Part shown: piece after piece, positions 12,742-54,245 of the stretch | How positions within the stretch are numbered: the stretch's first letter is position 1 | How the letters are laid out: every line of letters begins with the position of its first letter | Source of the DNA: a virus | Strand: one strand, 5' to 3' | Virus record (IMG/VR): IMGVR_UViG_3300021420_000028 | Span: 1 to 64,000 of that record | Length of the DNA stretch: 64,000 bases | Made by a program: the position numbers and the translations under genes | Notes under the pieces: generated by a model | The model's database searches: none | What the model saw: the letters and a program-made list of their open reading frames with translations, nothing else | What the model was told of the DNA's origin: nothing

Positions 12742-12748
12742 CACTACA
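12730..12748. promoter_or_regulatory. Perfect TGTAGTG-N5-CACTACA palindrome (site 2)
   Basis: TGTAGTG (12730-12736), AATAA, CACTACA (12742-12748). It overlaps the epimerase stop and ends 11 bases before the 50-aa basic ORF at 12760, which leads the serine recombinase. A TTGACG lies at 12709-12714, but the -10 at 17-bp spacing is poor. Confidence 0.65.
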
Positions 12749-12759
12749 TGGAGGGAGTC

Positions 12760-12912
12760 ATGCGGCGGCACCAGCATAAACGTCCAGCTAAAACGGCAGA
12801 GTGGAAAGTGCGTCGAGGCTCTCGTATTGTAGCTACGACTCAAGATTCCAAACGAGAGTATTGGATTCACGCGACTAAAGGTTATCGATCTTACCGAAAG
12901 GTATCGCCGTGA
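12760..12912 (+). CDS. 50-aa basic protein ahead of the recombinase
   Basis: Short ORF with a very good ribosome site (GGAGGGAG, about 4 nt before ATG). Strongly basic N-terminus (MRRHQHKRPAKTAEWKVRRG) followed by a strand-like, aromatic part (YWIHATKGYRSYRK). The stop overlaps the GTG of the serine recombinase, so the two are likely translated together. It could be a DNA-binding accessory or regulator; no family recognised. It lies immediately downstream of palindrome site 2. Confidence 0.6.
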   Translation: MRRHQHKRPAKTAEWKVRRGSRIVATTQDSKREYWIHATKGYRSYRKVSP

Positions 12913-14224: not shown

Positions 14225-15633
14225 TGGGTGACCGTCAGCAAGCGACGCTTTTTTACAACCAGGCGGTTGCGTCCAGCAACAACAAGGATGATCCCAAGCA
14301 TCTGGAGCACGCGCTCCATTTGTTCTCGTCCGCCTGCAATGCGGATCCGACCTGGGGGCAGGCGTTTTACCAGGCTGGCTGCAACCATTCCGATCTCAAC
14401 GCGATCCCGTCCGCGATCGCCTGCTGGCGCCGCGCCTTGGAGTGCGGCCTGGATGATGGCACCAAGGCCAAGGCGCTGGTCAACATAGGTTATCGGCTTC
14501 ACGGTCTTGGGCAGTCGCGAGAGGCTCTCTGCGTGACCGAGGAGGGTTTGAAGGTCGATCCCAACCTCCAGTATGGCTGGGTTCACATTTCCCAAATTAA
14601 GACGATCCAGAACAGGGTTGGCGAAGCGCTGGAGGCGGCGCAGCGCGCGTGGGACTTGATGCCGTCCGATCCGATCGTCGAACTCGCTTATGCGTTCGCG
14701 TTGCTTCAAGCTCGGAAGCTGGATGAAGGCTTCAAACGGTTCGAGGTACGTTTCAGGTACAAACTGAAGTCGTATCTGAATCTGCCTTATGCACAATGGG
14801 AGGGTGAAAGTGAAAAAACGGTCTACGTCGATGCAGATCAAGGTCTCGGGGACACCATCAGCTTTGCAAGATTTATCTCGCTTGCTGCGAAACGTGCGCG
14901 TTACCTCCACCTTATGGTGCAGCCCGAGCTCGTGCGGCTTTTTATGAACGCCTTCGTCGGGATTCCAAATGTTAATATCGTCCCCAAGCCCGCTCCCCTC
15001 CCCGAAGCGGATTGCTGGACGACCTTCGTCAGCCTCCCGACCGCGCTCGGGCTCTCGACCGAAGAAATCCGACAAGCACCGCATATCTCGTACCCGGTCG
15101 TCCAGCTCCCGCTGAATTGGAAGGTTACGGATCGCAAGCTGCATATCGGCATCGCCTGGGCAGGGAGCCCGTTCAATGACATCAACTCGCATCGGTCAAT
15201 CCCCGTCGAGCAATTCTTTGACTTATACCGAATCCCAAGTATTCAGCTATATGCTCTCCAAATTGGGCCTGAATCCCAGCGCTTGTATGACAATCACGGT
15301 CTTCCCCTCGTGCGAGACCTTTCTCCTTACATCCGAGACGTCGTCGATACCATCTCCGTCCTCAAGCAACTCGACCTAGTGATCTGCTGCGAATCGGCCC
15401 TCGCCCACATCTGCGCTTTGACGGGGACCGAGTGCTGGGTGCCCTACAGCCGACTGGGCAAGGACTATCGTCTGGGCACGAATGGCCGGGATCAGGTATG
15501 GTCGAATCACCGCGTGTTCAATCAGGGCGAAGACTTGCGCTGGGCGCCCGTTTTTAACGACATCTCACTGGCGCTGGAGGCTCGTATTCATGCACTTGAT
15601 CGACAGGTTGGAAAAAAGAGCGCGAGAGCTTGA
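14224..15633 (+). CDS. TPR protein with GT9/OGT-like glycosyltransferase domain
   Basis: 469 aa. Residues about 1-190 are TPR-like helical repeats (HALHLFSSACNADPTWGQAFYQAG…, ALVNIGYRLHGLGQSREALCVTEEGLKVDPN). The rest is GT-B-like: YVDADQGLGDTISFARFI, IGIAWAGSPFNDINSHRSIP, LDLVICCESALAHICALTG, and WVPYSRLGKDYRLG. This architecture resembles bacterial TPR proteins with heptosyltransferase-like domains. Likely a glycosyltransferase of the 8-17 kb module. The ATG follows the HAD stop (TAATG). Confidence 0.7.
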   Translation: MGDRQQATLFYNQAVASSNNKDDPKHLEHALHLFSSACNADPTWGQAFYQAGCNHSDLNAIPSAIACWRRALECGLDDGTKAKALVNIGYRLHGLGQSREALCVTEEGLKVDPNLQYGWVHISQIKTIQNRVGEALEAAQRAWDLMPSDPIVELAYAFALLQARKLDEGFKRFEVRFRYKLKSYLNLPYAQWEGESEKTVYVDADQGLGDTISFARFISLAAKRARYLHLMVQPELVRLFMNAFVGIPNVNIVPKPAPLPEADCWTTFVSLPTALGLSTEEIRQAPHISYPVVQLPLNWKVTDRKLHIGIAWAGSPFNDINSHRSIPVEQFFDLYRIPSIQLYALQIGPESQRLYDNHGLPLVRDLSPYIRDVVDTISVLKQLDLVICCESALAHICALTGTECWVPYSRLGKDYRLGTNGRDQVWSNHRVFNQGEDLRWAPVFNDISLALEARIHALDRQVGKKSARA

Positions 15634-15880
15634 TCAGCGGGTTCGCCAGAATTATTACAACCAGCAGGCGGCTGATGATCGGGAACTCATGTTTCTGGCC
15701 GCCAAAAAACTATCGTTATATGAAGCGTTATCTACGTCGAACATAGAAAACGGTATTCGCTTGATGGAAGAGGTTCTTGCCAATGACCGACGACGAGATG
15801 ACCGTGCTGATGATCGCGGCGGAAGGCGAGTCGATGGCCCCGATTGGCCGGTGGAAGGAACCGTTACTGGCGCTGACTGA
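15590..15880 (+). CDS. Small helical protein overlapping two neighbours
   Basis: 96 codons. The ATG at 15590 has GGAGG 9 nt upstream and lies inside the end of the TPR-GT gene; the 3' end overlaps the FkbM gene by 98 nt in another frame. The first 65 residues are convincingly helical (HLIDRLEKRARELDQRV…MFLAAKKLSLYEAL). The tail, beyond the FkbM start, is Arg/Asp repeats typical of out-of-frame reading. It resembles short phage proteins that pair with FkbM genes only by position; unknown function. Confidence 0.5.
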   Translation: MHLIDRLEKRARELDQRVRQNYYNQQAADDRELMFLAAKKLSLYEALSTSNIENGIRLMEEVLANDRRRDDRADDRGGRRVDGPDWPVEGTVTGAD

Positions 15881-16826
15881 ACGCGGGCTGATGAGCGCCA
15901 ACGACCCCGTTAATTACGTCATTACTGGCAAGGGACGGGCCGAATTGGCGCGGGAAGAGAAGCTGCGTGACGGCGCTTTCGCCAAGGCGTTGTCCGCGCA
16001 GCGGTGCGAGAGCAGCGACCTGCACGTACACATGACCGTACTCGGTCGCGAGATCGTGTTCGACTTGGTGTATGATCCCGGTTTCATTGCTGACGTCATG
16101 ACGAAGCGCTTTCTTGAACATAACGGTGCCTGCGAGCCGGAGACCGTTCATCTCATGCGGCGTGTTCTGCGTCCGGGCGATTTTGCCATCGATGGAGGCG
16201 CCAACATTGGTTTTTTCACGATGGTGATGTCTTGCCTGGTCGGCGATTCTTCGATAGGCTCAGAAGGTCATGTCGAGGCGTTCGAGCCGTCCACGGTTAA
16301 TTTCAAGAAGCTGCGCATCAACGTGGAGCGCAGCCACGCCGAGAACGTCACGGTCATCAATCGCGCCTTGTGGAGCGAGGATACCCAGGTTACGCTTCAT
16401 CAGCCGGCGGATACCGGCATGAGCAGCCTGGCCCCGTTGCAGGGAACCTTGAACCGGACGCCGGTTGGCGGGCTCACTCTTGACAAGTGGTGTCTAGCTT
16501 ACGACCAGAAGCCGCGGTTGTTGAAGCTGGACATTGAGGGTGCCGAGTTGCATGCATTGATTGGCGCGGGGCAGTTGCTGACGCGAGGAATCGATTTCGT
16601 TTGCTGCGAGATGAACCTGCCCGCGCTCAACCGGTTTGGAGCGTCTCAGATGGACCTGCGCGATTACATGGCGGGTAAAGGCTACACGACGTTCGAGCTA
16701 AGGCAGGACGGAGGACGACCGGTTCCTGTCGATCGGGAGCGCTTGTTGGTGCCGGAAGTTGCTAACTTTAATGTGCTGTTCTCGACAGTCGAGAGGGTAC
16801 ATGAGGCTTGGGAGCAACCGTTGTGA
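15783..16826 (+). CDS. FkbM-family methyltransferase
   Basis: 347 aa; ATG 15783 with GAGG about 11 nt upstream (TTG 15777 possible). The N-terminal 85 residues form a winged-helix-like lead (DEMTVLMIAAEGESMAPIGRW…GRAELA). The SAM-binding FkbM core follows: GDFAIDGGANIGFFTMVMS, VEAFEPSTVNFKKLRINV, LLKLDIEGAELHALIG, CCEMNL. FkbM enzymes O-methylate sugars or related hydroxyls. Together with the glycosyltransferases it suggests a modified glycan. A second FkbM-like gene is at 35148. Confidence 0.8.
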   Translation: MTDDEMTVLMIAAEGESMAPIGRWKEPLLALTERGLMSANDPVNYVITGKGRAELAREEKLRDGAFAKALSAQRCESSDLHVHMTVLGREIVFDLVYDPGFIADVMTKRFLEHNGACEPETVHLMRRVLRPGDFAIDGGANIGFFTMVMSCLVGDSSIGSEGHVEAFEPSTVNFKKLRINVERSHAENVTVINRALWSEDTQVTLHQPADTGMSSLAPLQGTLNRTPVGGLTLDKWCLAYDQKPRLLKLDIEGAELHALIGAGQLLTRGIDFVCCEMNLPALNRFGASQMDLRDYMAGKGYTTFELRQDGGRPVPVDRERLLVPEVANFNVLFSTVERVHEAWEQPL

Positions 16827-18450: not shown

Positions 18451-19034
18451 GGACGCATTGTCCTGTTTGCGGTCGGGGGTTGTGCCCCGACTTGCAACCT
18501 GTTCTCGAGTGGTGGTCGCCACAGGTTAGTGGCCGTATGAGACCGCCGTGGATTTCGTCGGATTGGATAAAAAGCATATGCGGCGGTTGTCAAGAGCGTT
18601 TTGCGCTGTGGTTGCGTCGACGAGATGAGCGCCTCTATTGGGTTGAGGATAACCAGTTTAATTTTAATGTTTGGTTGGCTGTTCAGCTAAATAAAGATTT
18701 GAAACGTATTCGCACTAAGAATTCTTTGCGTGTTTGGTGCCGAGAAGTCACGGCATACGGACCTTGTTCGCGCGAAGCCAAGTACGAAAATGGCTTTTGC
18801 ACTCGTCACGAGCCGGGAGTTTATACCGTAGCGAGTCGCACCGGTCGTATGGATCGAGTAGCGGCTGGACAGCGCGAGCAGGAAAATGTTAAGCGTCGCC
18901 GCCGCATAGCGGAACGGGCATACTTGCGTAAGCAGCTTTTTAGCGCTAGCTTGTCGCCATGGCAGGCTGGAGCGAAGCGAAAAGGGATCGTGTCGAGGCG
19001 GCGTTTTATGCCTTCCTGGCCCGTTGCTATATAA
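18447..19034 (+). CDS. Cys-rich, Zn-binding-like protein before terminase
   Basis: 195 aa, ATGA overlap. Cysteine pairs suggest two metal sites: HCPVCGRGLCP with ICGGCQERF, then VWCREV…GPCSREAKYENGFCTRHE. The C-terminal 50 residues are strongly basic (VKRRRRIAERAYLRKQL). The 3' end overlaps terL by 76 nt. Could be a recombination or DNA-binding protein inserted in front of the terminase; family not recognised. AT-richer than terL. Confidence 0.55.
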   Translation: MRTHCPVCGRGLCPDLQPVLEWWSPQVSGRMRPPWISSDWIKSICGGCQERFALWLRRRDERLYWVEDNQFNFNVWLAVQLNKDLKRIRTKNSLRVWCREVTAYGPCSREAKYENGFCTRHEPGVYTVASRTGRMDRVAAGQREQENVKRRRRIAERAYLRKQLFSASLSPWQAGAKRKGIVSRRRFMPSWPVAI

Positions 19035-20890
19035 ATTCAAAAGACAAGGGGCGAATCTGCCTCGGCGAGCATCTCTACGACGGGCAGATGCAGTTCATAA
19101 CAGCCGTCTTTGACGCGCTGGAAGCGGACATCCATCACATTTATTGCCTCAAGAGCCGGCAGCTTGGCATTTCTACGATCGTTCGCGCCTTGATCGCGTT
19201 CTACGTCGGCATCCACGACGGTCTCAAAGGCGCTTTGATCTTCGACACAAGTCCCCACAAGGAGAGCGCGCGCAAGGAGCTCGTCACGCTCATAAAGAAC
19301 TTGCCGCGCAGCCTGCGCTTTCCGGAAGTTCAGGGGACCGGGTCGGGCAATCGCGAGAGCCTGACCCTGATGAACGAGTCGGTGATCCTCTTCATGTCGG
19401 CCGGCGTCAAGGAGAGCAAGTCCAGCGGTACGCTGGGCCGCTCCGAGGGTTTGACCGTCGCGCATCTCAGCGAGCTTTGCTCGTACGAAAATCCTACTGG
19501 CATAAAAGCTCTGGAACAGTCGTTTTCTGACGAGCATCCAGATCGGCTTTACATTTATGAGTCGACCGCCCGCGGTTACAATATGTGGAAAACGATGTGG
19601 GATAAAGCGAAGGCCGACCCCCATCATTGCAAGTGTCTATTTCTCGGCTGGTTTTCGAAGCCTAGCCAGAGCATCCCACAAGAGCATGCTGATTTTCAAT
19701 TGTATGGACTCGCCCCACCGACGACGGAAGAGGCGGTTCGGATCAAGGCAGTGAGGGACCAGTACGGCCACGTCATAACGCCCGAGCAGCTGGCTTGGAT
19801 TCGCAAGAAGGTGAATCCCGAGGTGAACGCCGAGAACGACTCGGCTGTTGAGGAAGACGACACGATCATGCTTGCCGAGCAGGCCTGGACGGAAGAGGAG
19901 GCTTGGCAGCAGACGGGATCGGTATTTTTTGCCGGTGCCGACTTGACCGACATGACGAACAAGCATGTCAGTCGCAAGTTCAAGTCTTTTATGTTCCTGG
20001 CTGGCGAAGAGTTCGCCGACATGAAAATTTACCGGTCGGAGAATCCCCGGTCGACCGAGTTGAAGGTGTGGGAAGAACCAGCCCCGGAGGGTGTCTATGT
20101 CGCAGGAGTCGATCCCGCCTATGGAGAAAACGAGAACAACTGCAATTCTGCAATTCAAATCCTTCGATGCTATGCGGACGGGGTCGACCAAGTTGCTGAG
20201 TACGCTTGGCCTCTCCAAACAACACGTCATCTTGCATGGACCTTGGCGGCTATCTTGGGATGGTACGGCGCTAGTCCTAGAGCCGTTATCCGATACATCC
20301 TCGAACTCAACGGTCCCGGCACCGCCGTCTACAACGAAATAAAGGCGTTGAAGTTCTACATTGAGAACGCGACTTATGTTCAGAAGCCGCTGGAAGAACG
20401 CGGGCTCATGAATCTGTTTCAGAACGTCAAGACTTATATTTATACCCGTCCGGATTCGATGGGGCCGGGGTATAATTATCACTGGCTTACGAATACCCGT
20501 TTGAAGATCACGATCATGGAGCAGCTGCGCGACATCGCGTCTAACGGCAAGTTGCGCATCCGGTCCATGGATCTGATCGAGGAGATGCGGTCGATCTCGC
20601 GGGAAGGCGATTCGATCGGGGCGCCGTCGTCTATGCGCGACGACCGGGCGGTTGCAATGGCGCTCGCCAATTATTATTGGATGACCAAGATTCGCCAGGG
20701 GCTGATCGGCGAGCGGCGCACCCGTGCTGCGGAGGAATCCCGGCAGCGGCTGTCGATAGTTGACCAGGTGACGCTTTTCAACCAGAATAGCTTGGAGACG
20801 TTTTTTGCGGCCAAGCAGGCGGGGCGGCGCCGAGATGCAGTTGCCGCCACTCGCAATGCCTGGCGCTACGGAACGGGTCGGAGGTATTGA
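18959..20890 (+). CDS. terL: Terminase large subunit
   Basis: 643 aa. Translocase domain: adenine-binding DGQMQF near 43, Walker A KSRQLGIST (65-73) and Walker B LTVAHLSEL (Ser171-Glu172). Nuclease domain acids: VAGVDPAYGE (Asp385), ILELNG (Glu449), MRDDRAVAMA (Asp561/562). Drives DNA packaging into proheads with the portal. Length is at the upper end of the family. No small-subunit gene was recognised. Ribosome site is weak; the chosen ATG gives a normal lead-in. Confidence 0.9.
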   Translation: MAGWSEAKRDRVEAAFYAFLARCYINSKDKGRICLGEHLYDGQMQFITAVFDALEADIHHIYCLKSRQLGISTIVRALIAFYVGIHDGLKGALIFDTSPHKESARKELVTLIKNLPRSLRFPEVQGTGSGNRESLTLMNESVILFMSAGVKESKSSGTLGRSEGLTVAHLSELCSYENPTGIKALEQSFSDEHPDRLYIYESTARGYNMWKTMWDKAKADPHHCKCLFLGWFSKPSQSIPQEHADFQLYGLAPPTTEEAVRIKAVRDQYGHVITPEQLAWIRKKVNPEVNAENDSAVEEDDTIMLAEQAWTEEEAWQQTGSVFFAGADLTDMTNKHVSRKFKSFMFLAGEEFADMKIYRSENPRSTELKVWEEPAPEGVYVAGVDPAYGENENNCNSAIQILRCYADGVDQVAEYAWPLQTTRHLAWTLAAILGWYGASPRAVIRYILELNGPGTAVYNEIKALKFYIENATYVQKPLEERGLMNLFQNVKTYIYTRPDSMGPGYNYHWLTNTRLKITIMEQLRDIASNGKLRIRSMDLIEEMRSISREGDSIGAPSSMRDDRAVAMALANYYWMTKIRQGLIGERRTRAAEESRQRLSIVDQVTLFNQNSLETFFAAKQAGRRRDAVAATRNAWRYGTGRRY

Positions 20891-30829: not shown

Positions 30830-31171
30830 ATGGGACCGTTGAGTGCAAAGTTGCGCAGCGTCGAGGGTGGTGTCGCCCATTGGTGTCCTGCGTGTGATGA
30901 GTCGCATGTTTATCGCGTGCCGCGATGGATGTTTGATGGAAATGTTGATTCGCCGACGTTTTCGCCCAGCATGCTAATTAGTTGGGGAACTTGGGGCGAT
31001 GACGATCCGGAGGACAAGGAAAAGTATGACGGGCGAATTTGTCACTATTTTTTGACGGCTGGAAAGTTGGCGTATTGTGGCGATAGCACGCATGCGTTAG
31101 CTGGGCAGACTGTCGATTTACCAGATTGGCCTAAAGCGTACGAGGAGCGTCCCGGTGCCGATGACGCTTAA
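30830..31171 (+). CDS. DUF6527-like Cys protein
   Basis: 113 aa; ATG one base after the preceding stop, AAGGCGGGG upstream. HWCPACDESHVYRVPRWMFDGNVDSPTFSPSMLISWG… RICHYFLTAGKLAYCGDSTHALAGQTVDLPDW matches DUF6527-type phage proteins; the C-x2-C and HYF…YC cysteines suggest a zinc site. Role unknown. It sits between the two adaptor paralogues and overlaps the next GTG. Confidence 0.75.
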   Translation: MGPLSAKLRSVEGGVAHWCPACDESHVYRVPRWMFDGNVDSPTFSPSMLISWGTWGDDDPEDKEKYDGRICHYFLTAGKLAYCGDSTHALAGQTVDLPDWPKAYEERPGADDA

Positions 31172-32099
31172 CCAATACGTCGAGGACGTTCAAACCTTCT
31201 TGCGTGACAGCAAGCAGGATTTGCTCGATCCGCAGGACATCATCAAGTACATCAACCGCGCTCGCCGGGAGATCGCGATCCGGACGCAGTGCGTGCGCGT
31301 TCTCACGCCGATCACGGGAGCGGTTATTGGAGCATCGGTTGTTTCCGGAGGTTCAGGGTATGGTAGCGGGACCACGACGATAACGCTTACGCCGCCTGAT
31401 TTTCCTTCTGGCGCTGGACCTTTTCCGAACGGGAGTCAGGGCTCCGTTACGCCGATCGTCAGTGGCGGTTCGATCACGGGCGTGAATGTCGTTTATGGCG
31501 GTGCTGGCTACTGGCAGCCATCGTTCTCGATCACTGGGGCGGGGAGCGGGGCGACGGTGACGCCGGTTTTGTCCAAGATCGAGCAACTAAGTCAAGGCCA
31601 GGAAGTATTGAATTTTTCAGACGTAGACTTGACTCCGTTTCCAGGAGTACAGTCCGTGTACGCCGTACAATCGGTAAGTGTTCTTTATAGCGGGTTTAGG
31701 TATTCGTTGATTTGTTACTCATTTTCTACTTACCAAAGCTTAATCCGCATCTGGGCTCAACAATGGCAATACGTGCCGGCGGTATTTGCCCAGTACGGAC
31801 AAGGTACAAACGGCACGCTATACTGCTATCCGATCGCTTCGCAGAATTGGCAGGTTGAGCTAGACTGTTATTGTCTGCCTCAAGACTTGCTGACGGATTT
31901 AAGTGTTGAAGTTATACCGGACCCGTGGACCGATGCGGTGGCTTATTTCGCTGCTCACCTGTGCTACTTGAGTATTCAGAATTTTAATGCTGCAAAATAC
32001 TATGAGGACATGTTCAATAGGCGATGTTTGGGGTACAGCAACGCCGCGCGGGTTAGTCGCGCGACTTCGCCATATGGCAGGTACGCGGGAGGGGCGTGA
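31155..32099 (+). CDS. Head-tail adaptor-like protein 2 with GSGY insert
   Basis: 314 aa, GTG 31155 with GAGGAG seven nt upstream (ATG at 31161 is the alternative). N- and C-terminal parts (LDPQDIIKYINRARREIAIRTQCVRV, DPWTDAVAYFAAHLCYLSIQNF) match the previous adaptor-like protein. Between them, residues about 55-145, is a GGSGY-type beta repeat (VSGGSGYGSGTTTI, VVYGGAGYWQPSFSI). The insert and later part are AT-richer. Its 3' end overlaps the convergent HNH gene by 47 nt. Confidence 0.6.
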   Translation: MPMTLNQYVEDVQTFLRDSKQDLLDPQDIIKYINRARREIAIRTQCVRVLTPITGAVIGASVVSGGSGYGSGTTTITLTPPDFPSGAGPFPNGSQGSVTPIVSGGSITGVNVVYGGAGYWQPSFSITGAGSGATVTPVLSKIEQLSQGQEVLNFSDVDLTPFPGVQSVYAVQSVSVLYSGFRYSLICYSFSTYQSLIRIWAQQWQYVPAVFAQYGQGTNGTLYCYPIASQNWQVELDCYCLPQDLLTDLSVEVIPDPWTDAVAYFAAHLCYLSIQNFNAAKYYEDMFNRRCLGYSNAARVSRATSPYGRYAGGA

Positions 32100-35147: not shown

Positions 35148-36026
35148 ATGATTTACGATATGTCCGTTCCGTGTCCGCTGGACGACCATCCCGTTACGTT
35201 TAAATTTGAACTGGATAAGCGTAATAAAAACAAAGCTTTCATCATGGATTTTTTCCAGAAGGGGCTTCTTTATGAGCCCGAGATTTCATGGTTCATGCTC
35301 CGGGCGATAAAACCAGGCGATTTCGTCGTGGACGTCGGCGCCAATATTGGTGTTTTCACGGTTCTCATGTCCAAGATGGCAGGGCCTGATGGACTCGTAC
35401 TGGCGTTTGAGCCTGATGCAGATAATCTTTCGTGTTTAAAGAACAATTTGCGTATAAACAATATCAGCAACGTCGAGATTGTCGAGCGCCCCCTGTGGAT
35501 TCGAGAGGAAGAGGTTAGATTGTACGAATGTAAGGATACGACTGGTAGTCACGCACTTTGGGATGTGTCGCTGTGGCCTGGCAATGAGCTGACCCGGCAC
35601 GATGGCGTCAAGTCTAAAGCTTTCATGGCGTGCACGTTGGAAAAAGAACTGGCCCGAACAGGGCGGAGGTGCGCTTTCATCAAGTTGGATACCGAGGGGG
35701 TCGACGAACCCATCTTGAAGTCTCTCGGATCGCAGCGTCCTGATTACATAGTATCAGAGTTGAACCCGTTCGGCATGCTTCAGGTTGGTTCTGATAACGA
35801 CGCGATGCGGACGCTCATGTCGAGTTATGGATATGAGTGTTTTTTCATTCACAGGGATGACCGACTGCCTTCGCTGATTCCGGCCAGTTCCAAGCTGATG
35901 AACGGTCCTAACGGCTGTATCGTGATGAACGTGCTGTTCTCGACGTTGGAGAAGGTTGGCGAGGTCTATCCGTATGTATCAAGCATAAACAAGTGGGACT
36001 TCTTGAAAAAAGACGTAGTCAAATGA
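35148..36026 (+). CDS. FkbM-family methyltransferase in tail module
   Basis: 292 aa; AGAGGTTAGAG upstream. SAM-binding GDFVVDVGANIGVFTVLMSKMAGPDG, LAFEPDADNLSCLKNNLRINN, AFIKLDTEGVDEPILKS, and SELNPFGM: FkbM core. Its late part (VMNVLFSTLEKVGEVYPY) resembles the end of the 15783 enzyme (FNVLFSTVERVHEAWEQ), indicating the two are related. AT-rich relative to tail genes. Its substrate might be a virion-associated glycan or a host polysaccharide. Confidence 0.8.
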   Translation: MIYDMSVPCPLDDHPVTFKFELDKRNKNKAFIMDFFQKGLLYEPEISWFMLRAIKPGDFVVDVGANIGVFTVLMSKMAGPDGLVLAFEPDADNLSCLKNNLRINNISNVEIVERPLWIREEEVRLYECKDTTGSHALWDVSLWPGNELTRHDGVKSKAFMACTLEKELARTGRRCAFIKLDTEGVDEPILKSLGSQRPDYIVSELNPFGMLQVGSDNDAMRTLMSSYGYECFFIHRDDRLPSLIPASSKLMNGPNGCIVMNVLFSTLEKVGEVYPYVSSINKWDFLKKDVVK

Positions 36027-44859: not shown

Positions 44860-45118
44860 AGAGACGGATGCTCCTTTGACAAAGGCTCAGGAGCGACAAG
44901 ACGCCGCACCTCCTGGGCTCGATCTCCTGTTGCTGAGCTTGAAGACGCTGTCTCAGCGCACGCTCTCTGCCATCGCCAATCTCTTCACCCTGGTGACCAT
45001 GACAGGCACGTGGTGGTTGTGGTACAAGACGCCGGATCCTAATCCGACCCAGATCGTGTCTCTATCGATCTTCGCCGCGTTCGTGCTTGCGGCCAATTGG
45101 CTGGTGAGGCGGAAATGA
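44813..45118 (+). CDS. Two-TM protein (holin-like candidate)
   Basis: 101 aa, GAAGGAA upstream. Acidic N-terminus, amphipathic helix (LDLLLLSLKTLSQRTLSAIANL), then two membrane segments (FTLVTMTGTWWLWY and IVSLSIFAAFVLAANWLV) and a short RRK end. Size and topology resemble holins, but other small membrane proteins lie at 50792 and 54860, so the holin cannot be singled out. Confidence 0.55.
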   Translation: MSDPARKWEVIQDEPEETDAPLTKAQERQDAAPPGLDLLLLSLKTLSQRTLSAIANLFTLVTMTGTWWLWYKTPDPNPTQIVSLSIFAAFVLAANWLVRRK

Positions 45119-45567
45119 AGCGAAACGCTCTTGTAGTCGTATTCACTACAATATTATTGCTGGTCGCTGGAGTCAACCCGCTTCGAGCGCAAAGCAATGT
45201 GCGTCTTGCGCCCCCAAACCTTGGGCTCCAGAGCCAAACTTGCGGCTCGGCCGTGTCAAGCTGCGTCTTGAAGGCCAGCAACGGCTTCTTGCTGGGGGTT
45301 TACGCCGAATGCACGGCGGCTTGCTGGATCATGGTGTTCAATACTACAACCGCGCCAAGCAACGGATCTACGACTGCGGGGGACGGAAGCGGGGCGTCCG
45401 GTAACTTGGTCGATTGCGTCGACGTGGCGGCGGGTTCGTCCCGATCCCTCACTTATCCGAATTACCCCGTATGGTATTCGGTCGGAATCACGGTTGCCAT
45501 CAGCTCAACCGCGTGTGCCACGCTGACACTTTCCACGGTTGGTTTTGTGCGAGGAACCTATCAATGA
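45115..45567 (+). CDS. Secreted-type protein at start of tail-fibre cluster
   Basis: 150 aa. ATG 45115 overlaps previous stop. N-terminal Sec signal: MKRNALVVVFTTILLLVAGVNPLRAQS, with Arg/Lys, a long hydrophobic run and an ARAQ-like site near residue 27. The rest is beta-rich with several Cys (TCGSAVSSCVLKA, CTAACWIMVF, VDCVDV, STACATLTL). First of five signal-peptide proteins in 45.1-50.5 kb. Palindrome variant 45131-45151 lies in its signal-peptide codons. Confidence 0.6.
   Translation: MKRNALVVVFTTILLLVAGVNPLRAQSNVRLAPPNLGLQSQTCGSAVSSCVLKASNGFLLGVYAECTAACWIMVFNTTTAPSNGSTTAGDGSGASGNLVDCVDVAAGSSRSLTYPNYPVWYSVGITVAISSTACATLTLSTVGFVRGTYQ
45131..45151. promoter_or_regulatory. Degenerate copy of the 19-bp palindrome (site 5)
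   Basis: TTGTAGT (45131-45137), CGTATTC, ACTACAA (45145-45151). Compared with TGTAGTG-N5-CACTACA it differs at one inner base but keeps the geometry. It is inside codons of the 45115 gene, so function is doubtful. Confidence 0.3.
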
Positions 45568-46541
45568 TCTGGAGAATCCTCGTATTAATGCTGCTTGCCC
45601 ACGCTGCTTGGGCACAGCAGATATCGGGCGGCGCTGGGGGCGGCTCATCTTCTTCCCTCGTCATCGGCACCACGGCGATCACGGGATGCGGCACAAGCGG
45701 GTTTGTGCTGTATAACAACTCCAGCGCCGTAGGCTGTGAAGCGACTATCGTTTCCGGATCCTCGGCGACAAGCGGCTGCGGGTTCAGTTCCACTGGAAAC
45801 TTTGGCGGGGTTTTGTGGAATAACAACGGGGTAGTAAACTGCGCTGTAAATGTGCTCTCGACTGACGGCTTATCCAGCTTTCGGATTAGCAGCGGTAGCG
45901 GCGGAACGTATGGGACCGTTCAGATATGGGATGTTGCGGGGACGGGCAGTAGGGCTGTTTTCATAGGCGGGGCGTCATTCGGAATTGCACAGTATTCGAC
46001 GGCGCGCTATGCCTGGAATTCTTCCGCCTCTGGCGATGTTCTAGGCTCGATCGACACGACACTATGCCGACAAGGTGTCGGTATTGTCGAGATTGGTTCT
46101 GGGACGGGATGTGGAGCCAGCGGCAGTCTACTCACGACGAATATCACAGCCAGCGGCGCAAACGTGCTGTTTAGTGGGATAAACGCCACGACCGAGACGG
46201 ACATGCTTTGCTTCAATACGAGCACGGGCCTCGTTACGCACAGCACCGTCGCTCAGCAATGCACGGTCTCGGATGCAAATCTCAAGCAGGAAATCACTCC
46301 GATTGACCCGCGCCGAGCGCTCGCTGTCGTGACTGGTTTTGATCCGATCGAGTTTCACTATCGTCCCGAAGCCGATATGGGCAGCGATTTGCACATGGGT
46401 TTTACGATGCAGCGGGTGGCATCCATCGAACCGAAACTGGCAACACCTAATGGCATCAAATATGGCGAGTTAAGCCCATGGCTGGTCGCAGCGATTCAGC
46501 AATTGAAAGCCGAGATTGATGCTTTGAAGGCGGCTAAATGA
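45564..46541 (+). CDS. Tail fibre with signal peptide and S74 chaperone domain
   Basis: 325 aa; GAGGAACC upstream. Signal-like start MIWRILVLMLLAHAAWAQ with cleavage after AWA. Beta-rich, Gly/Ser/Thr body. The C-terminal ~90 residues (SDANLKQEITPIDPRRALAVV…FDPIEFHYRP…HMGFTMQRV…YGELSPWLVAAIQQLKAEIDALK) are the intramolecular chaperone/auto-protease of endosialidase-type fibres (Peptidase_S74), which trimerises and self-cleaves. A phage fibre carrying an apparent Sec signal is unusual. Confidence 0.75.
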   Translation: MIWRILVLMLLAHAAWAQQISGGAGGGSSSSLVIGTTAITGCGTSGFVLYNNSSAVGCEATIVSGSSATSGCGFSSTGNFGGVLWNNNGVVNCAVNVLSTDGLSSFRISSGSGGTYGTVQIWDVAGTGSRAVFIGGASFGIAQYSTARYAWNSSASGDVLGSIDTTLCRQGVGIVEIGSGTGCGASGSLLTTNITASGANVLFSGINATTETDMLCFNTSTGLVTHSTVAQQCTVSDANLKQEITPIDPRRALAVVTGFDPIEFHYRPEADMGSDLHMGFTMQRVASIEPKLATPNGIKYGELSPWLVAAIQQLKAEIDALKAAK

Positions 46542-47797
46542 TAAAAGTCATTGCCGCTATTCTTCTGTCGACGCTACCTTGCTGTGCAGTGACGTGTGCA
46601 GATTTCAAATATGATTATTATCCCTGCCAGAGATTAAATGCGGAATCGTTTCAGGGTATCACAATCGGTGACCAGATAGCTGCCTGCGTAGCGGCGCTCC
46701 CGCCCTCTGGCGGCATTTGCAATGCTCGCGATCTTCCTTCCGGCGGGACCGTCCCAGGATTAACTATTACGCAAAGCGGCGTCACAATCGTTGGCCCGTG
46801 TGGGACTTTCAATGTCACGGGTACGATCAACATATATAATCCTGACGGAATTTCGGCCTTCAAGTGGGAGATGTGCGGATCATCTTTCAACGGAAACGGT
46901 ACCACTCTGGTTTGGCAAGGGGATGCAGCAAGTCCGATGTTTCGCCTGCGCGGCGTGCGCGATTCGATTTTAAGCGATTTCAGCATTAATTCGAGTTCAG
47001 CATTCCCCCTCGCAGAAGGTATCAGATTGGAGACTGCAACGGGGACGACCTCTACTCATCGTATCTATCGAAATGTAAAGATGAACGGGACCAATACTGG
47101 CGGCCTGATTAAAGGCATGCGATGGTGCATCGGCGATGACTGCGGTGGGGCCGGGCCGGACGGCAACAATGATGTGGACCTCATCGACGGCGTGCAGGTA
47201 GCGAATTACACCAACTGTGCTTTTTCGATCGAAGGCACCCAATCGAAGGCGCATCAGTTCACGGGGCAGTCATTCTTCGCGGGAAATCAGATCGGCCAGC
47301 GTGGCGTCTGTACCACGCAGGCCGCCAACCCTCTCCGTAACTCGGGAAGTTATCATTGGCAAGGCGGCGCTGGCGGCGGCAATACGGTCGCTGATTTCGA
47401 TCTCGGCAATCCGAACGACACGATCACGATTCGGGATTTCAATCTCGAAAACTCGGCTCGCCTGCTGCAGACCGGACCCGTAAGTTCGAGCACGTTTCCC
47501 CTTACAATCAGCGGCGGGCGCTGGGCGGCAAACAAGCTCGCTCCCGACAACATCGTCGTGCTGTATCAATGGAACGGCCCGTTGTTCGTCGAGGGATCGA
47601 ATATCGAGGGAGCACCACAGAACGCAACCCCATCGATCAGCCTCACATTTCCAGGCGCGACCGGTGTGGCGATCGGCAATTCGATCTCATGGGTGCCGGC
47701 ATCGAGCGGCGGGCAGCCATTCATCGGCAGTGGGACGTGGCAGAAGACGGGTAACCTGCTCACGGACAATGCCGGCAACGTGTTCCCGATTCAATGA
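46538..47797 (+). CDS. Tail-spike-like beta-helix protein with signal peptide
   Basis: 419 aa, ATGA overlap. Starts MIKVIAAILLSTLPCCAVTCA, a short Sec signal or lipoprotein-like. The Cys-rich opening leads to a right-handed beta-helix pattern (LTITQSGVTIVGPCGTFNVTGTINIY…, ILSDFSINSSSAFPL, RNVKMNGTNTGGLIKG), as in pectate-lyase-type spikes. The polysaccharide target is not predictable. Second spike-like gene of the cluster. Confidence 0.65.
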   Translation: MIKVIAAILLSTLPCCAVTCADFKYDYYPCQRLNAESFQGITIGDQIAACVAALPPSGGICNARDLPSGGTVPGLTITQSGVTIVGPCGTFNVTGTINIYNPDGISAFKWEMCGSSFNGNGTTLVWQGDAASPMFRLRGVRDSILSDFSINSSSAFPLAEGIRLETATGTTSTHRIYRNVKMNGTNTGGLIKGMRWCIGDDCGGAGPDGNNDVDLIDGVQVANYTNCAFSIEGTQSKAHQFTGQSFFAGNQIGQRGVCTTQAANPLRNSGSYHWQGGAGGGNTVADFDLGNPNDTITIRDFNLENSARLLQTGPVSSSTFPLTISGGRWAANKLAPDNIVVLYQWNGPLFVEGSNIEGAPQNATPSISLTFPGATGVAIGNSISWVPASSGGQPFIGSGTWQKTGNLLTDNAGNVFPIQ

Positions 47798-47804
47798 GGG
47801 TATG

Positions 47805-48032
47805 ATGGTGCGCGCTATCGCTATTCTGCTTTGCCTCGCCACTCCTGCCCTGGCTCAGCAGCTCCCGCCGCTCGATCCTGCCGTCCAGCTCGGCGTCTGC
47901 CAGCAGCAGCGTGCCCGCTTTCTCGACGACAGCGAGAAGGCGTCGGCCTACGCGAACCAGTTCCTTGCCGAGATCGCCGATCTGAAAAAGAAGCTTGCCG
48001 AAGCAGAGGCGAAGATTCCGAAAGAAAGATAA
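47805..48032 (+). CDS. Small secreted coiled-coil protein
   Basis: 75 aa. ATG 47805, GAGGG upstream (47802 is too close). Signal peptide MVRAIAILLCLATPALA, cut before QQ. The remainder is helical with a coiled-coil end (FLAEIADLKKKLAEAEAKIPK). Could be an o-spanin-like or periplasmic adaptor, although no lipobox is seen after residue 17. Confidence 0.6.
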   Translation: MVRAIAILLCLATPALAQQLPPLDPAVQLGVCQQQRARFLDDSEKASAYANQFLAEIADLKKKLAEAEAKIPKER

Positions 48033-48033
48033 A

Positions 48034-48525
48034 ATGACTACGGTCCAGCAAAGCGGCGCTCCGACTCCCTATCACATCGCCCAATGGCTAGCGAACGGTG
48101 TGATCGGAGATGGTGGGGCAATGCCAACAGGACGACTTATCGTCTCCGGCCGCGGGCTAAATTTCAATACGACTGCCGATCAGCCGATCGCAATCCCGCA
48201 ATACATCACCGCCTTCCGGATCGCCAACATCATCATCACCAATGCTTCGATCAGCCTGACGACGGCGCAAGGCGGGTTCTACCCGGCCGCCTCCAAGGGC
48301 GGCACGCCGATCGTGGCGAACTCGCAGGCGTACTCGGCGCTGACGACGTCGGCCGGGCTGATGACTGCCGCGCTGGCGCCATTTGGATCCGGCACGCGGT
48401 TCTCGGCGGCGAATCTCGGGACGATCGGCGGTCTCCTTGCAATCTGGTTTTCGCTTTCGGTTGCTCAAGGTGCGGCAGCGGCAGCGACTGCGGACATCTA
48501 CTTCGTAATTGATAATTTGAGTTGA
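48034..48525 (+). CDS. Tail protein sharing the NGV-GD module
   Basis: 163 aa. The start (TPYHIAQWLANGVIGDGGA) is nearly the same motif as in the next protein (TPGHGVNWITNGVVGDSGA), but no signal peptide precedes it here. The body is beta-rich and Ala-rich. Probably a fibre or attachment domain component. Confidence 0.65.
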   Translation: MTTVQQSGAPTPYHIAQWLANGVIGDGGAMPTGRLIVSGRGLNFNTTADQPIAIPQYITAFRIANIIITNASISLTTAQGGFYPAASKGGTPIVANSQAYSALTTSAGLMTAALAPFGSGTRFSAANLGTIGGLLAIWFSLSVAQGAAAAATADIYFVIDNLS

Positions 48526-48529
48526 GCGC

Positions 48530-50485
48530 ATGAAAAAAATTCTCGCACTCCTGTTCGCTCTTGGTGCTTCTCCGGCGTCAGCACAACAACCGGTTGTGCA
48601 GTCAGGTTTTGTAACCCCTGGTCACGGCGTTAATTGGATCACCAACGGCGTAGTTGGTGACAGCGGCGCCCCGAGCGGCGGCGTCGGCCTGGTTGGCAGC
48701 TTCGTCATCAACGACATGCTGTGCGCCAGCGCGACCGGCACAAGCATCTCGGTCATCGACTGCGGGTTCTCGGCGACCGGGACCAACAATTGGGTCGGAC
48801 TGCAAAATCTGAACGGAGGCGCAACAGCGCCCACGCGACCAGCGAACGATTCGACGACAAACGTCGCCACCACCGCCTTCGTCCAGAATTTCGGTGCCGC
48901 GCCCGCCAACGTGATGAACTTCGGCGCGAAGTGCGATGGCTCGACCGACGACACGACCGCCATCCAGACCGTCCTGAACACCTACAAGTACGTCCTGATC
49001 CCGGCGAGCGGCTCTGGGTGCAAGGTATCGACCTTGACGGTAGGCGCTGCCTTTCTAGGGCAAACGCTTGTCGGTTCCGGTAGCGGCGTATCTTTTCTAA
49101 CTTCTTCGTCCACCACGGCTGACATTATACAGGTAGTGGCCACAAGCTACGGAGCTATAATCAGGGATTTTGGGATCAAGCGCTCAGTTACGGCTTCGGC
49201 AGGCTGCGGAATCCACTATTTAGGTTATGTGGACGTGCCAGAAATCGTCAACATGGAGATTCAGCAGCAATACGTTGGACTCTGCCTGTCCAGCACTGGT
49301 TACGGAATTCTTAGAAACAGTTTTATTCACAATAATATCAGCGACAACTGGACAATCAGCAATCCGACTATAAACAATCAGTATCAGTGGTATCTCGACA
49401 CGGTTCTCGGCGAGAGCAGCGGGGGCCGGTGTTCTACGGTGACTGCGCCACCGACTGCGGCTTTAGGCGCCACTGTAACCATGGGGACGTGGACTAACGT
49501 CTTCTGTTTTGCAAACATGGGAAAAGGTAATGCCTTCCTAGGTAATTCTTCAGTTGGAATTTACGGAGTTAGAATTATTGGTGGGTTTCACGGGACGGAT
49601 GGAGACGTCGAAGATTATTTCGACACCTATTCCGGGGGAATCCAAATTAATGGCTTGTTTACGGAGCAAACGGCTTCTAATAGTTGCATCCAATTTACTT
49701 CCAATGTGTCCGACGCGACGCTGACTGGTGTAGTCGCCCGTAGTTGTTCAGCGGCTGGGATCGCCAGTGCCGCTACGACAATGTTGAACCTTACTGGCGG
49801 GGCGCTGATCACGAACGGTACCTACGGCTTGGTCAACACGGGCATTGCCAACCTGACAGGCGTCGAGTTCAACGCAAATACGGCGGGAACCGTCAGCAAC
49901 TCCGGCACCTTCACCGGCCGCGGCAATTTTCCGGCAAGCGTCGACACGCTGCTCGGTCTCGCTCAAGGCGGGACGAACGCCAATCTCTCCGCGACCGGCG
50001 GCACATCCCAGGTTCTCAAGCAGGTTTCGACCGGCGGCGCAGTCACAGTCGGCCAGCTTCAGTGTACCGATCTCTCGACCGCTGGTACCGCCTGCACGGC
50101 CAACACGGGGACTTCTGGTGCCACCGTGCCCCTGCTCAACGGCAATAACACGAACAGCGGCCTGAACACGTTTTCCGGACAGATCGTCTCGACTTTCGGT
50201 ACTCCCACGATCGCTTCGGGCGCGTGCGGAACTGGAACGAACGGGAGCATTTCCGGCACCAACCAGTCAGGAAGCATCACAATTGGCGCTTCGGCAACAA
50301 CGACCTGTACTATTTCATTTTCTACGACTATAACAGCTCCAGGGGCGTGCTTGATCTTTCCCGGCAACGCGACTGCTGCCGCGACCGGAACGACGGTGGC
50401 ACGTGTCGGAACGCCCTCGGCAACAGCGTGGGTCGTTACTGGATCCGCACTGGCGAACACCGTATATAGTTACATCTGTCTGTAA
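48530..50485 (+). CDS. Large tail-spike/beta-helix protein with signal peptide
   Basis: 651 aa; starts MKKILALLFALGASPASA, textbook Sec signal with ASA-type cleavage. After the shared PGH…WITNGVVGD module comes NVMNFGAKCDGSTDDTTAIQTVLN, the standard entry to pectate-lyase-like tailspikes (polysaccharide depolymerases). The beta-helix runs to about 460, then a Gly/Thr/Asn-rich C-terminal fold. Likely receptor-binding or glycan-degrading spike. Confidence 0.75.
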   Translation: MKKILALLFALGASPASAQQPVVQSGFVTPGHGVNWITNGVVGDSGAPSGGVGLVGSFVINDMLCASATGTSISVIDCGFSATGTNNWVGLQNLNGGATAPTRPANDSTTNVATTAFVQNFGAAPANVMNFGAKCDGSTDDTTAIQTVLNTYKYVLIPASGSGCKVSTLTVGAAFLGQTLVGSGSGVSFLTSSSTTADIIQVVATSYGAIIRDFGIKRSVTASAGCGIHYLGYVDVPEIVNMEIQQQYVGLCLSSTGYGILRNSFIHNNISDNWTISNPTINNQYQWYLDTVLGESSGGRCSTVTAPPTAALGATVTMGTWTNVFCFANMGKGNAFLGNSSVGIYGVRIIGGFHGTDGDVEDYFDTYSGGIQINGLFTEQTASNSCIQFTSNVSDATLTGVVARSCSAAGIASAATTMLNLTGGALITNGTYGLVNTGIANLTGVEFNANTAGTVSNSGTFTGRGNFPASVDTLLGLAQGGTNANLSATGGTSQVLKQVSTGGAVTVGQLQCTDLSTAGTACTANTGTSGATVPLLNGNNTNSGLNTFSGQIVSTFGTPTIASGACGTGTNGSISGTNQSGSITIGASATTTCTISFSTTITAPGACLIFPGNATAAATGTTVARVGTPSATAWVVTGSALANTVYSYICL

Positions 50486-50791: not shown

Positions 50792-51121
50792 ATGAACCCG
50801 AATACCTGGATCAGTTTTTTGACTACCACGATCGGCGCTGCTGCCACGGCTTCGGCGACAGATGGATTGATCACTGGAAACGCGGCTCAAACAATCATTA
50901 GCGTGGCGGGCATAGCGGTTCCCTATCTCTGGGGCCTGTTCATCCACCGGGACAGCAAGGTCGTCCAGACGGCGAGCCAAGTGGCGGGCGTCCAACCGAT
51001 CAAGATCACTACCGACGCTTCACCCGCCCTGCAGAGTATGGCCAAGGATGACTCGATCAAGACCGTCATCGAGGCCGCACCGCAGCCCTCCCCCTACGCC
51101 ACCAGCATACAGAGGCAATAA
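50792..51121 (+). CDS. Membrane protein, holin-like candidate
   Basis: 109 aa. WISFLTTTIGAAATASATDG and AAQTIISVAGIAVPYLWGLFIHRDSK give one or two membrane passes, followed by a soluble tail (TASQVAGVQPIKITTDASPALQSMAKDDSIK). It stands two genes before the endolysin, as holin-type proteins often do. Assignment by topology and place. Confidence 0.5.
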   Translation: MNPNTWISFLTTTIGAAATASATDGLITGNAAQTIISVAGIAVPYLWGLFIHRDSKVVQTASQVAGVQPIKITTDASPALQSMAKDDSIKTVIEAAPQPSPYATSIQRQ

Positions 51122-51483: not shown

Positions 51484-52839
51484 ATGACCGTTGACCCCGT
51501 TCTGGCCCTACTGATCAGCTCCGTTGTCGGCAACGTTGTACTTGGTCTAGTCGCATGGGCCAGCATTAACAAGGCGAGCACTGATCGTGCCCAACCATCC
51601 GCACCGGCCGTCCCTAGTGGGCCTCCTGTTGCTTGGCCCCCTGTCATTGTCGCCCCTCCTGTTACTGAGCCACCCGTCAGTCCCATTCCCCCGGCCCCGC
51701 CCGTCAGTCCTCCAGTTGTTATCGCTCCACTCGCTCCACCAACGCCCCCGGTGGTTGTCCCTCCAGTCGTCCAACCAGCCCCTCCCGCCACCATCCCTGC
51801 CGGAACCGACTTCGACCAGTGCCTCGCCCTCGTTCTCAAGTACGAAGGCGGCAACGACGACGATCCCCGTGACCCTGGCGGCCGGACCTCGCGCGGAATA
51901 CTCCAAACCGAGTGGGATGCGTGGCGGCAAACGCATTCTGGTCTCCCATCGGATGTCTGGCAGGCGCCACAAGACCAGGTAACTGCGATTTATCGGCAGA
52001 ATTACTGGAACGCGCTCTACTGCGACAGCCTGCCTCCGGGCGTGGACCTCGCCGTGTTCGACTACGGCGTCAACTCGGGCATCAGCCGCTCGGCGAAGCT
52101 ATTGCAGACGCTGACCGGTGTGGACGTCGATGGCGAGATCGGCCCCGACACGATTGGCGCAGCAGCAAAGGCCGATCCCGTCAGTCTCGTAGGCCGGTTC
52201 TGTGACGCGCGGCTTGCGTTTCTGCAGGGACTCGGGACGTGGGGAACGTTCGGACGGGGGTGGACGTCGAGGGTGCAGGACGTGCGCACGCATGCACTCG
52301 CGATGGCTTCCGCCGCCCCGCAACCAAAGCTGACGCTCCCCTCCGCGGCGAACATCCCGGCCCCTGCGACCGCCGCACCGTGGCTTACGCTGGCCCGCAG
52401 CCTCGTCGGGACGCACGCGCAGAACGACAATGCCACCATCATTGGCTGGCCCCAGGCCATCGCGGCGAAGTACCCCGACATGGCTTCCTATGCCGCGCGC
52501 TATGTTCACGACTCGACGCCCTGGTGCGGCGTCTTTGCCGCATATTGCCTGGCGATGAACGGCATCCGCCCGATCTTCGGTCCGACCGACACCGACAAGT
52601 GGATGTGGGCGGACGCATGGAAGAATTTTGGAACTGCGGTTGATGTCCCACAGCCCGGCGACGTGCTAGTGTTCAGGTGGGCCGGCGGCGGCGAGCACGT
52701 GACGTTCTACGATCACGAGGACGACACAGACGACAATTACCATTGCACTGGAGGCAATCAGGGCAGCAGCCACGTCGTCTCGACCGAGGCGATGCCGATG
52801 GGGAACTGCATCGCAATCAGACGGCCGCCGGCTTCGTGA
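51484..52839 (+). CDS. Membrane-anchored dual-domain endolysin (GH108 + CHAP/NlpC-like)
   Basis: 451 aa. N-terminal membrane segment (VLALLISSVVGNVVLGLVAW), a Pro/Val linker (40-105), then a glycoside hydrolase 108-like muramidase: CLALVLKYEGGNDDDPRDPGG with catalytic Glu121 and FDYGVNSG…. A second domain from about 300 (LTLARSLVGTHAQNDN…TPWCGVFAAYCL, Cys348; GGGEHVTFYDHE, His405) is a CHAP/NlpC-type amidase-peptidase. Suggests a signal-anchor route to the periplasm. Its stop overlaps the alternative start of the sedolisin. Confidence 0.8.
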   Translation: MTVDPVLALLISSVVGNVVLGLVAWASINKASTDRAQPSAPAVPSGPPVAWPPVIVAPPVTEPPVSPIPPAPPVSPPVVIAPLAPPTPPVVVPPVVQPAPPATIPAGTDFDQCLALVLKYEGGNDDDPRDPGGRTSRGILQTEWDAWRQTHSGLPSDVWQAPQDQVTAIYRQNYWNALYCDSLPPGVDLAVFDYGVNSGISRSAKLLQTLTGVDVDGEIGPDTIGAAAKADPVSLVGRFCDARLAFLQGLGTWGTFGRGWTSRVQDVRTHALAMASAAPQPKLTLPSAANIPAPATAAPWLTLARSLVGTHAQNDNATIIGWPQAIAAKYPDMASYAARYVHDSTPWCGVFAAYCLAMNGIRPIFGPTDTDKWMWADAWKNFGTAVDVPQPGDVLVFRWAGGGEHVTFYDHEDDTDDNYHCTGGNQGSSHVVSTEAMPMGNCIAIRRPPAS

Positions 52840-52859
52840 TGGAAACAGCGAGGAAAACC

Positions 52860-54245
52860 ATGACAGCACCAGCAAGAACAGTTCCAGCCATTCACGCCTA
52901 CATAAAGCACCAGGGCGACGGTGCGCACGCCACGGAGGCGCCGTGGACCATGCCGGCTCTTGCCACGCGGTACAGGTTCCCGACCAATCAAGCAGGCGGG
53001 GGCGTAATTGGCATCCTGGAGATGGGCGGCGGCTGGACGGCGTCGGACATGACGTCGTTCTTCGCCTCGATCGGACAGCCGGTTCCAAGCATCACCGACA
53101 TCTCGGTTGACGGGACGACCAATACGCCCGGCAGCGACGACGATTTCGAAGTCGCCTTGGACATTCAAGTGGCTGCCGCAGCGTATTATGTTGCTACGGG
53201 ACGAGCTGCTGGCATTCGCGTCTACTGGGCGCAGGACATCGCAACTGCATTGCGTGCAGCGACGAAAGATGGCTGCTCTGTGTTTTCAATGTCATGGGGT
53301 GCCAACGAGGCGGACTGGAATTCAGGTTCCGGCGCCGGGTCGTGCCTCGACATGCAGGCGGCTGCGCTCGCGGCGGTGGCGGCTGGGACGGTCCCCTTTG
53401 CAGCATCCGGCGACAACGACAGTGACGACGGTGCGCGCAAGGCGGCCGTGGATTGTCCGGCGAGCTGCCCAAGCGTGGTCGGCTGTGGCGGGACGACACT
53501 GACAGTGGGCAGTGAAATCGTCTGGAACAACAATCCGGGCAACAATGACGGCGAGGGGACCGGAGGCGGATTCAGCAAAATCTTCCCGATCCAATCATGG
53601 CAAAAGGGAGTTCCCGCCGCGCCGTCCGGCCTCGGCCGCATGGTTCCGGATGTCGCGAGCTGCGCCGACCCAAACACTGGTATCGAGATATTCTGCCAGG
53701 GGTCAGCTACGGTTGTCGGCGGCACGAGTGCTGCGGCGCCGCTGTGGGCCGGCCTGGTCGCCGCTTGCGGGGTGAGACTGGGCTCGATCGCGCCCAAGTT
53801 CTACCTCGCGCCGAGCGCTTTCACGGATATCACTTCGGGCGGAAACGGTTCTTACAATGCCGGACCTGGACCGGACCCGTGTACGGGCATGGGCTCCCCG
53901 ATCGGATCGGCCATCGCGACGATGCTGTCCGGAATCGCTACGAATCCGCCGGGGACGACACCGCCGCCGGTAACCACATCGCCTCCTGCTCCAGGCGTAC
54001 CTCCTAGCCATGCCGCTGTCGACGCGGCATATGGAGCGCTCGGCACTGCGCTGGCGGCCTACGAAGCGGCGGTAGCGGCCTGGGTGGCCGGCAGCGCACA
54101 AGCGCGCCCTGTGCCGCCGCGTCCGCCGGAAGCTCCTCCGCAGCGCCCCGAACCGCGTCCAGAGCCGCCACAAGGCGGTCCGCAACCTCGTCCGCAGCCG
54201 GGAAGACCCGGCGGCAACGATCCGCGCGGCGGCGGACGTAGGTAG
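52860..54245 (+). CDS. Sedolisin (S53) serine peptidase
   Basis: 461 aa from ATG 52860 (GAGG about 6 nt upstream); ATG 52839 overlapping the endolysin stop is possible. Catalytic pattern complete: E97-x3-D101 in DFEVALDIQ, D185 in AASGDN, S290 in GGTSAAAP. Ca-binding end FTDITSGGNG…AGPGPDPCTGMGSP. Sedolisins usually carry a ~200-residue propeptide; here the mature domain starts at about residue 20. No signal peptide. A Pro/Arg/Gly-rich tail follows (from 362). Might cleave virion or host envelope proteins. Confidence 0.8.
   Translation: MTAPARTVPAIHAYIKHQGDGAHATEAPWTMPALATRYRFPTNQAGGGVIGILEMGGGWTASDMTSFFASIGQPVPSITDISVDGTTNTPGSDDDFEVALDIQVAAAAYYVATGRAAGIRVYWAQDIATALRAATKDGCSVFSMSWGANEADWNSGSGAGSCLDMQAAALAAVAAGTVPFAASGDNDSDDGARKAAVDCPASCPSVVGCGGTTLTVGSEIVWNNNPGNNDGEGTGGGFSKIFPIQSWQKGVPAAPSGLGRMVPDVASCADPNTGIEIFCQGSATVVGGTSAAAPLWAGLVAACGVRLGSIAPKFYLAPSAFTDITSGGNGSYNAGPGPDPCTGMGSPIGSAIATMLSGIATNPPGTTPPPVTTSPPAPGVPPSHAAVDAAYGALGTALAAYEAAVAAWVAGSAQARPVPPRPPEAPPQRPEPRPEPPQGGPQPRPQPGRPGGNDPRGGGRR

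Follow-up and report, generated by a model that had tools for sequence, protein, structure and literature searches.

Why should a phage attach export signals to its tail fibres and spikes, proteins that are taught to be cytoplasmic, free of disulfides, and assembled ahead of lysis? The question is raised by six genes (A through F) at positions 45115-50485 of a 64,000-nucleotide window, the whole stretch of DNA analysed here, from the 66,569-base IMG/VR record IMGVR_UViG_3300021420_000028. The window derives from a tailed phage and carries genes for a terminase, an adaptor, a holin-like protein and an endolysin. Judging from their sequences, the products of A, B, D and F are very probably exported from the cytoplasm, with gene C more weakly supported, and signal-bearing proteins of this phage and its relatives very probably contain disulfides. 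We also consider it rather probable that receptor-binding spikes of this phage are exported, undergo oxidation in the periplasm, and attach to virions when the cell lyses. The six genes are listed below, with a slash marking each predicted cut.

45115..45567, + strand: gene A, 150 amino acids (aa), Sec signal peptide of 25 aa and a 125-aa mature part with 6 Cys
45564..46541, + strand: gene B, 325 aa, signal peptide of 17 aa, fibre with a C-terminal Peptidase_S74 chaperone (Pfam S74 2.8e-8; PHROG tail fibre)
46538..47797, + strand: gene C, 419 aa, weaker signal (cut CCA/VTC or TCA/DF), 9-10 mature Cys
47802..48032, + strand: gene D, 75-76 aa, signal peptide and a short charged mature part, probably coiled-coil, one Cys
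48034..48525, + strand: gene E, 163 aa, no signal peptide, no Cys, N-terminal motif and a predicted jelly-roll-like beta domain
48530..50485, + strand: gene F, 651 aa, signal peptide of 18 aa, motif, then a beta-helix spike with 16 mature Cys (PF12708, 27.5 bits over its frame)

Signal peptides were called by a home-made rule that is applied to the N-terminus and considers its n-, h- and c-regions and an AxA cut; as a measure of specificity, none of 2238 internal Met positions was accepted. The starts at 45115, 45564, 47805 and 48530 score highly and open textbook signal peptides for Sec and signal peptidase I, with cuts predicted at MKRNALVVVFTTILLLVAGVNPLRA/QSN, MIWRILVLMLLAHAAWA/QQI, MVRAIAILLCLATPALA/QQL and MKKILALLFALGASPASA/QQP. 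The N-terminus at 46538, MIKVIAAILLSTLPCCAVTCAD, is a weaker signal that the rule rejects. Thus, where the first-pass annotation described Sec signals at all five starts, each start indeed exists and four signals fit that description, whereas the fifth does so poorly. Because the rule also misses likely signals among motif proteins of two relatives (L065 and L080), the counts of signal-bearing (SP+) proteins given here are conservative. Among 68 called genes, only one more is flagged, through an alternative upstream start near 38625. A basic n-region, a hydrophobic h-region and an AxA cut are present in A, B, D and F, and only weakly in C. Signals for lipoproteins (signal peptidase II) were not found: A, B, D and F have AxA/Q, and C on inspection has no canonical lipobox.

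Gene E falls inside this run of signal peptides and has none itself, a feature that the earlier annotation did not record. Its N-terminus and that of mature F have in common the motif QSG..TP.H...W...G...D, positioned as follows.

48049..48117, + strand: motif in E, 5 residues past the start
48530..48583, + strand: signal peptide of F, MKKILALLFALGASPASA/QQPVV, conserved in relatives L058 and L060
48599..48667, + strand: motif in F (QSG.VTPGH...W), 5 residues past the predicted cut

In related phages, the predicted cut of SP+ motif proteins usually lies 2-8 residues ahead of QSG, and the initiating Met of signal-less (SP-) motif proteins lies 4-8 residues ahead of it. The latter are mostly about 160 aa long, have 0-2 Cys, and are encoded adjacent to an SP+ gene. 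When aligned (alignment A3), the motif proteins have invariant N-terminal residues and bodies that are mostly 19-34% identical, which is the constant N-terminal module and variable body looked for in fibres and tailspikes. From this shared module and from the protein families described below, we infer that the spikes dock on the virion, for which the motif may serve as the module. Separately, motif spikes without a signal but with 13-18 unpaired Cys occur in one metagenome (L082:8251-10143 and L052).

Relatives were retrieved from IMG/VR with a DNA pattern of the motif, which yielded 50 stretches, mostly contigs of 62-67 kb. The same signal-peptide pattern recurs in about 30 related genomes of soil phages, each some 62-67 kb long. 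Five near-complete relatives have 4-6 SP+ genes among 67-79 genes, all but one of them in the fibre/lysis segment, and relatives found via B and F retain the signals in the same slots while the bodies are exchanged. The mature part of A is 98% identical to that of relative G001 and its signal peptide only 44% identical, as expected for a functional yet degenerate export signal. The slot of gene C is occupied in L060 by MKSLVALLLSTVCGYA/LTCQ. In L058 (7403-9184) and L059 (11150-12934) the same slot holds MISRRRLLISAAVLTCPFRAAA/Q, a twin-arginine-like (RR-type) signal, which suggests that one spike of these phages may use twin-arginine translocation in place of Sec. Counterparts of D stand beside spikes in L058, L059 and other relatives, and D could be a periplasmic chaperone or a spanin-like part. 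Other routes to relatives gave little: a search via gene C found none and one via a 1225-aa protein of the virion module found one, a nucleotide search of the region in INPHARED gave no match, tblastn with gene E and with the 30-residue motif gave no match, and tblastn with gene F gave a single weak match in a Nostoc phage.

Further evidence for export comes from the cysteines. The window and 30 relatives supplied a set of 53 non-redundant SP+ proteins, each 100 aa or longer in its mature form, in which related proteins below the 40% identity limit are not fully independent. Circularity is avoided, since only the N-terminus was used to decide which proteins count as SP+. The number of Cys is even in 47 of the 50 SP+ proteins that have any (p=1.9e-11), compared with 79 of 160 SP- proteins of the same loci, and Cys density is 1.64 per 100 residues in the former and 0.72 in the latter. 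When consecutive Cys are paired (first with second, third with fourth, and so on), the gap within pairs is smaller than the gap between them in 46 of 46 SP+ proteins and in 21 of 43 SP- proteins. Random placement of Cys reached at most 29 of 40, against 40 of 40 observed in a first run, and chance was rejected as an explanation. In B, the 8 mature Cys form four close pairs (25-41, 55-76, 151-166 and 199-216); in F there are eight such pairs (47-60, 117-146, 208-234, 283-308, 368-388, 494-504, 548-575 and 589-632), both sets being numbered along the mature chain. Large proteins of the virion module are nearly Cys-free (none in 1225, 629 and 375 aa; two in 754 aa). Even numbers of adjacent Cys are a signature of disulfides, and therefore export is probably real. 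The SP+ proteins probably fold with local disulfides in an oxidizing compartment. Such oxidative folding in the periplasm, suggested by these Cys statistics, is absent from the possibilities raised in the first-pass annotation.

What kind of proteins are these? The first-pass annotation assigned an S74 chaperone to one protein, which we confirm for B, and a beta-helix to two. The second assignment holds for F, which matches the pectate-lyase beta-helix family PF12708, and lacks support for the product of 46538 (gene C), which has no family match in Pfam, PHROG or PDB sequence searches. No fibre or tailspike domain was matched by A, C or D. In the 30 related genomes, all eight S74 proteins are SP+. 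Among 69 scanned proteins, nearly all SP+, seven have S74, and others match beta-helix, endosialidase and GDSL families and many tail fibre or spike entries of PHROG. Several cultured phages (cyanophages, pelagiphages and Methylophilales phages) have tail fibres that contain a domain of the SP+ spike of L068; four homologues examined at full length have no signal peptide and 0-3 Cys, and the cyanophage and pelagiphage fibres, in contrast to the window proteins, show no paired Cys. These results bear out the earlier claim that proteins of the fibre and spike class carry real signals for export, an anomaly among tail proteins.

An AlphaFold2 model of E, made with 15 relatives, is all-beta with a predicted local distance difference test score (pLDDT) of 88. 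Among the nearest solved folds in Foldseek are cement proteins of podophages and a fibre tip from Bdellovibrio, every one at E >0.02. The resemblance to the capsid cement proteins of KHP40, Pam1 and GP4 is a weak jelly-roll match (Foldseek probability 0.87-0.99, TM about 0.4-0.5, about 10% identity) that is not significant, and E has in addition the N-terminal motif. Its matches in BFVD are unnamed phage proteins. The corresponding model of F (pLDDT 33) was discarded. PDB sequence searches of C, E and F gave nothing useful, a single kinase match to B is at chance level, and an NCBIfam scan gave no match.

The six genes are flanked by the virion module on one side and the lysis genes on the other; landmarks of the window are given here.

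18959-20890: terminase
31161-32099: SU10-type adaptor
50792..51121, + strand: probable holin (PF23987 3.2e-4, below cut-off), first of the lysis genes beside the spike cassette
51484..52839, + strand: endolysin with GH108, PG_binding_3 and CHAP, and a hydrophobic N-terminus (possible signal-arrest-release (SAR) or signal anchor)

Together, these features point to a receptor-binding-protein cassette whose spikes and fibres would be made as Sec pre-proteins. Late in infection, the pre-proteins would cross the inner membrane and be cut at AxA/Q. In the periplasm they would fold with many local disulfides formed by the host oxidizing machinery, and the spikes would wait there while virions are assembled without them in the cytoplasm. 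The adjacent lysis genes would then open the cell so that spikes meet virions, and the QSG..TP.H...W module, by then the mature N-terminus, would dock the spike. Signal-less E, with the same module, would be made in the cytoplasm alongside the virion. The predicted signal peptides, the matching mature N-termini, the disulfide signature and the spike and fibre families can be read directly from the DNA, and from them we infer Sec use and cleavage, and docking at lysis.

Several observations weigh against this proposal. No phage-encoded DsbA was found, so that oxidation must rely on the host. The signal-peptide calls depend on a home-made rule, the docking role of the motif is our interpretation, and the fold matches of E are weak. 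Some SP- motif proteins are long and Cys-rich (L082 with 18 Cys, L055/L083 with 8), although their Cys are unpaired. Likewise, some relatives have spikes without a signal, namely L082, L083 and an 815-aa pectate lyase in G010/G012/G021 that adjoins SP+ spikes. Export is therefore not obligatory, and the trait is frequent rather than universal. Finally, the report on the Tunturi phages considered below (PMC11924767) gives no proteomic, fractionation or N-terminal data.

Of the other explanations, the one that survives best, though we regard it as unlikely, is that the exported proteins are no part of the virion but enzymes, adhesins or decoys assembled from spike modules, either periplasmic or released, which would act on the infected cell's envelope or, after lysis, on the matrix and neighbours. 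In keeping with this, each genome has 4-6 SP+ proteins, enzyme-like domains such as GDSL lipase and pectate-lyase occur among them, and some genomes keep a separate signal-less spike. However, the N-terminal module is common to SP+ and SP- proteins and occupies an equivalent place in their mature chains, S74 and tail-fibre families predominate, and lysis would free enzymes regardless, so that a signal peptide would be of little use to them unless for oxidation.

Improbable by comparison is the suggestion, made in the first-pass annotation, of membrane-anchored tail assembly, in which the hydrophobic N-termini would be uncut anchors and tails would be completed at the inner membrane, or else the products would stay membrane-bound until lysis. 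A hydrophobic stretch behind a basic N-terminus is compatible with a signal anchor, and the lysis module may itself use a SAR-like endolysin. Yet the AxA/Q sites are clean, end signals of 17-25 aa, and are conserved despite the divergence of the signals themselves, as seen in A. Moreover, the cut falls a few residues before the conserved motif and would give a mature end matching that of signal-less neighbour E, which argues against anchoring.

It is very improbable that the signals are start-codon artefacts, with true starts downstream and cytoplasmic products. The gene caller did favour an internal ATG at 45588 over 45564, but the ATG at 45564 shares bases with the stop of A, an overlap typical of coupled genes, signals recur at the same place in dozens of divergent genomes, and paired, even Cys are unexpected in cytoplasmic proteins. 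Display or shielding by lysogens, also raised earlier, has the export signals alone in its favour and is hardly credible, since no integrase was found in the window (and one exceeded the cut-off in only 2 of 27 related genomes), about 85,000 bacterial genomes gave a single match to the motif, on an Acetobacteraceae-binned contig, rather than the occurrence in lysogens expected of a prophage-encoded surface protein, and no route over the outer membrane is visible for display before lysis. That match, L089 (PLFB01000004.1), belongs to an Acetobacteraceae metagenome-assembled genome from a bog and carries the motif and a virion-module relative.

How do the proposed periplasmic spikes compare with known systems? 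Like S74 tail fibres and pectate-lyase beta-helix tailspikes (PF13884, PF12708), which B and F resemble by S74 and PF12708, respectively, the window proteins combine a constant N-terminal module with a variable body and are encoded beside lysis genes; unlike them, they have a signal peptide and stapled Cys. Virion proteins of Cellulophaga phages phi4:1 and phi14:2 verified by tandem mass spectrometry, including three pectate-lyase spikes, were examined as a possible precedent and served instead as a negative control: they have no cleavable signal peptide, which is the normal condition, and the spikes, unlike those of the window, have no paired Cys. Phages are known to use Sec for endolysins with signal peptides or SAR domains, such as Lys44 of fOg44 (PMC6116005). 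There too, a lytic phage pre-positions a late protein beyond the inner membrane via host Sec, but the cargo is a lysis enzyme rather than a spike or fibre. Target proteins of phage diversity-generating retroelements are stated to be without signal peptides (PMC6199706). Our search, largely confined to open-access papers, turned up no description of tail spikes with Sec signals.

By terminase, the closest cultured phages with named hosts, although distant from the window, include Tunturiibacter phages Tunturi_1 and Tunturi_2, 63-kb podoviruses of an acidobacterium (PMC11924767). Their tail genes gp12, gp13, gp14 and gp17, and gp113 and gp114 of the siphovirus Tunturi_4, encode signal peptides that the same paper does not mention. 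As in the window, these tail proteins join a signal peptide to even, adjacent Cys pairs (8-34 mature Cys, always even and paired), and unlike in the window, no QSG motif was seen.

Other genes deserve brief mention. Directly 3' of the endolysin (window 52833-54245) is a subtilase-family (S8/S53-like) protease with a proline-rich tail. Window positions 8201-16826 and 35148-36026 hold glycosyltransferase-like, epimerase, tetratricopeptide repeat and two FkbM methyltransferase genes, one of the latter within the virion module, and glycan modification is possible. In relatives, SP+ proteins beginning AADMPVKAP/ADLPPPIL (L061:5607-6314, L076:13674-14444 and L079:3481-4293), with no Pfam or NCBIfam match where scanned, bear some likeness to alphaproteobacterial 31-kDa outer-membrane proteins. 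Small SP+ proteins with lipobox-like GGCA/SACA ends lie downstream of spikes (L072:16983-17375, L077:13123-13506 and L078:13856-14206) and are candidate o-spanins or lipoproteins.

More broadly, we lean slightly toward a two-compartment assembly, in which cytoplasmic heads and tails and disulfide-stapled periplasmic spikes would be joined only at lysis. Podo- and siphophages that infect soil bacteria of the phylum Acidobacteriota, and probably of other phyla too, would assemble in this way. A signal peptide combined with paired, even Cys offers a sequence-only test for further cases, and the cultured Tunturi phages are available as test systems. If this model is true, virions can require SecYEG, signal peptidase and DsbA of the host for their assembly, and its final step would occur at or after lysis, such that virions in mixed lysates could exchange spikes. 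The receptor-binding proteins made in this way may also be exceptionally stable, and thus suited to soil.

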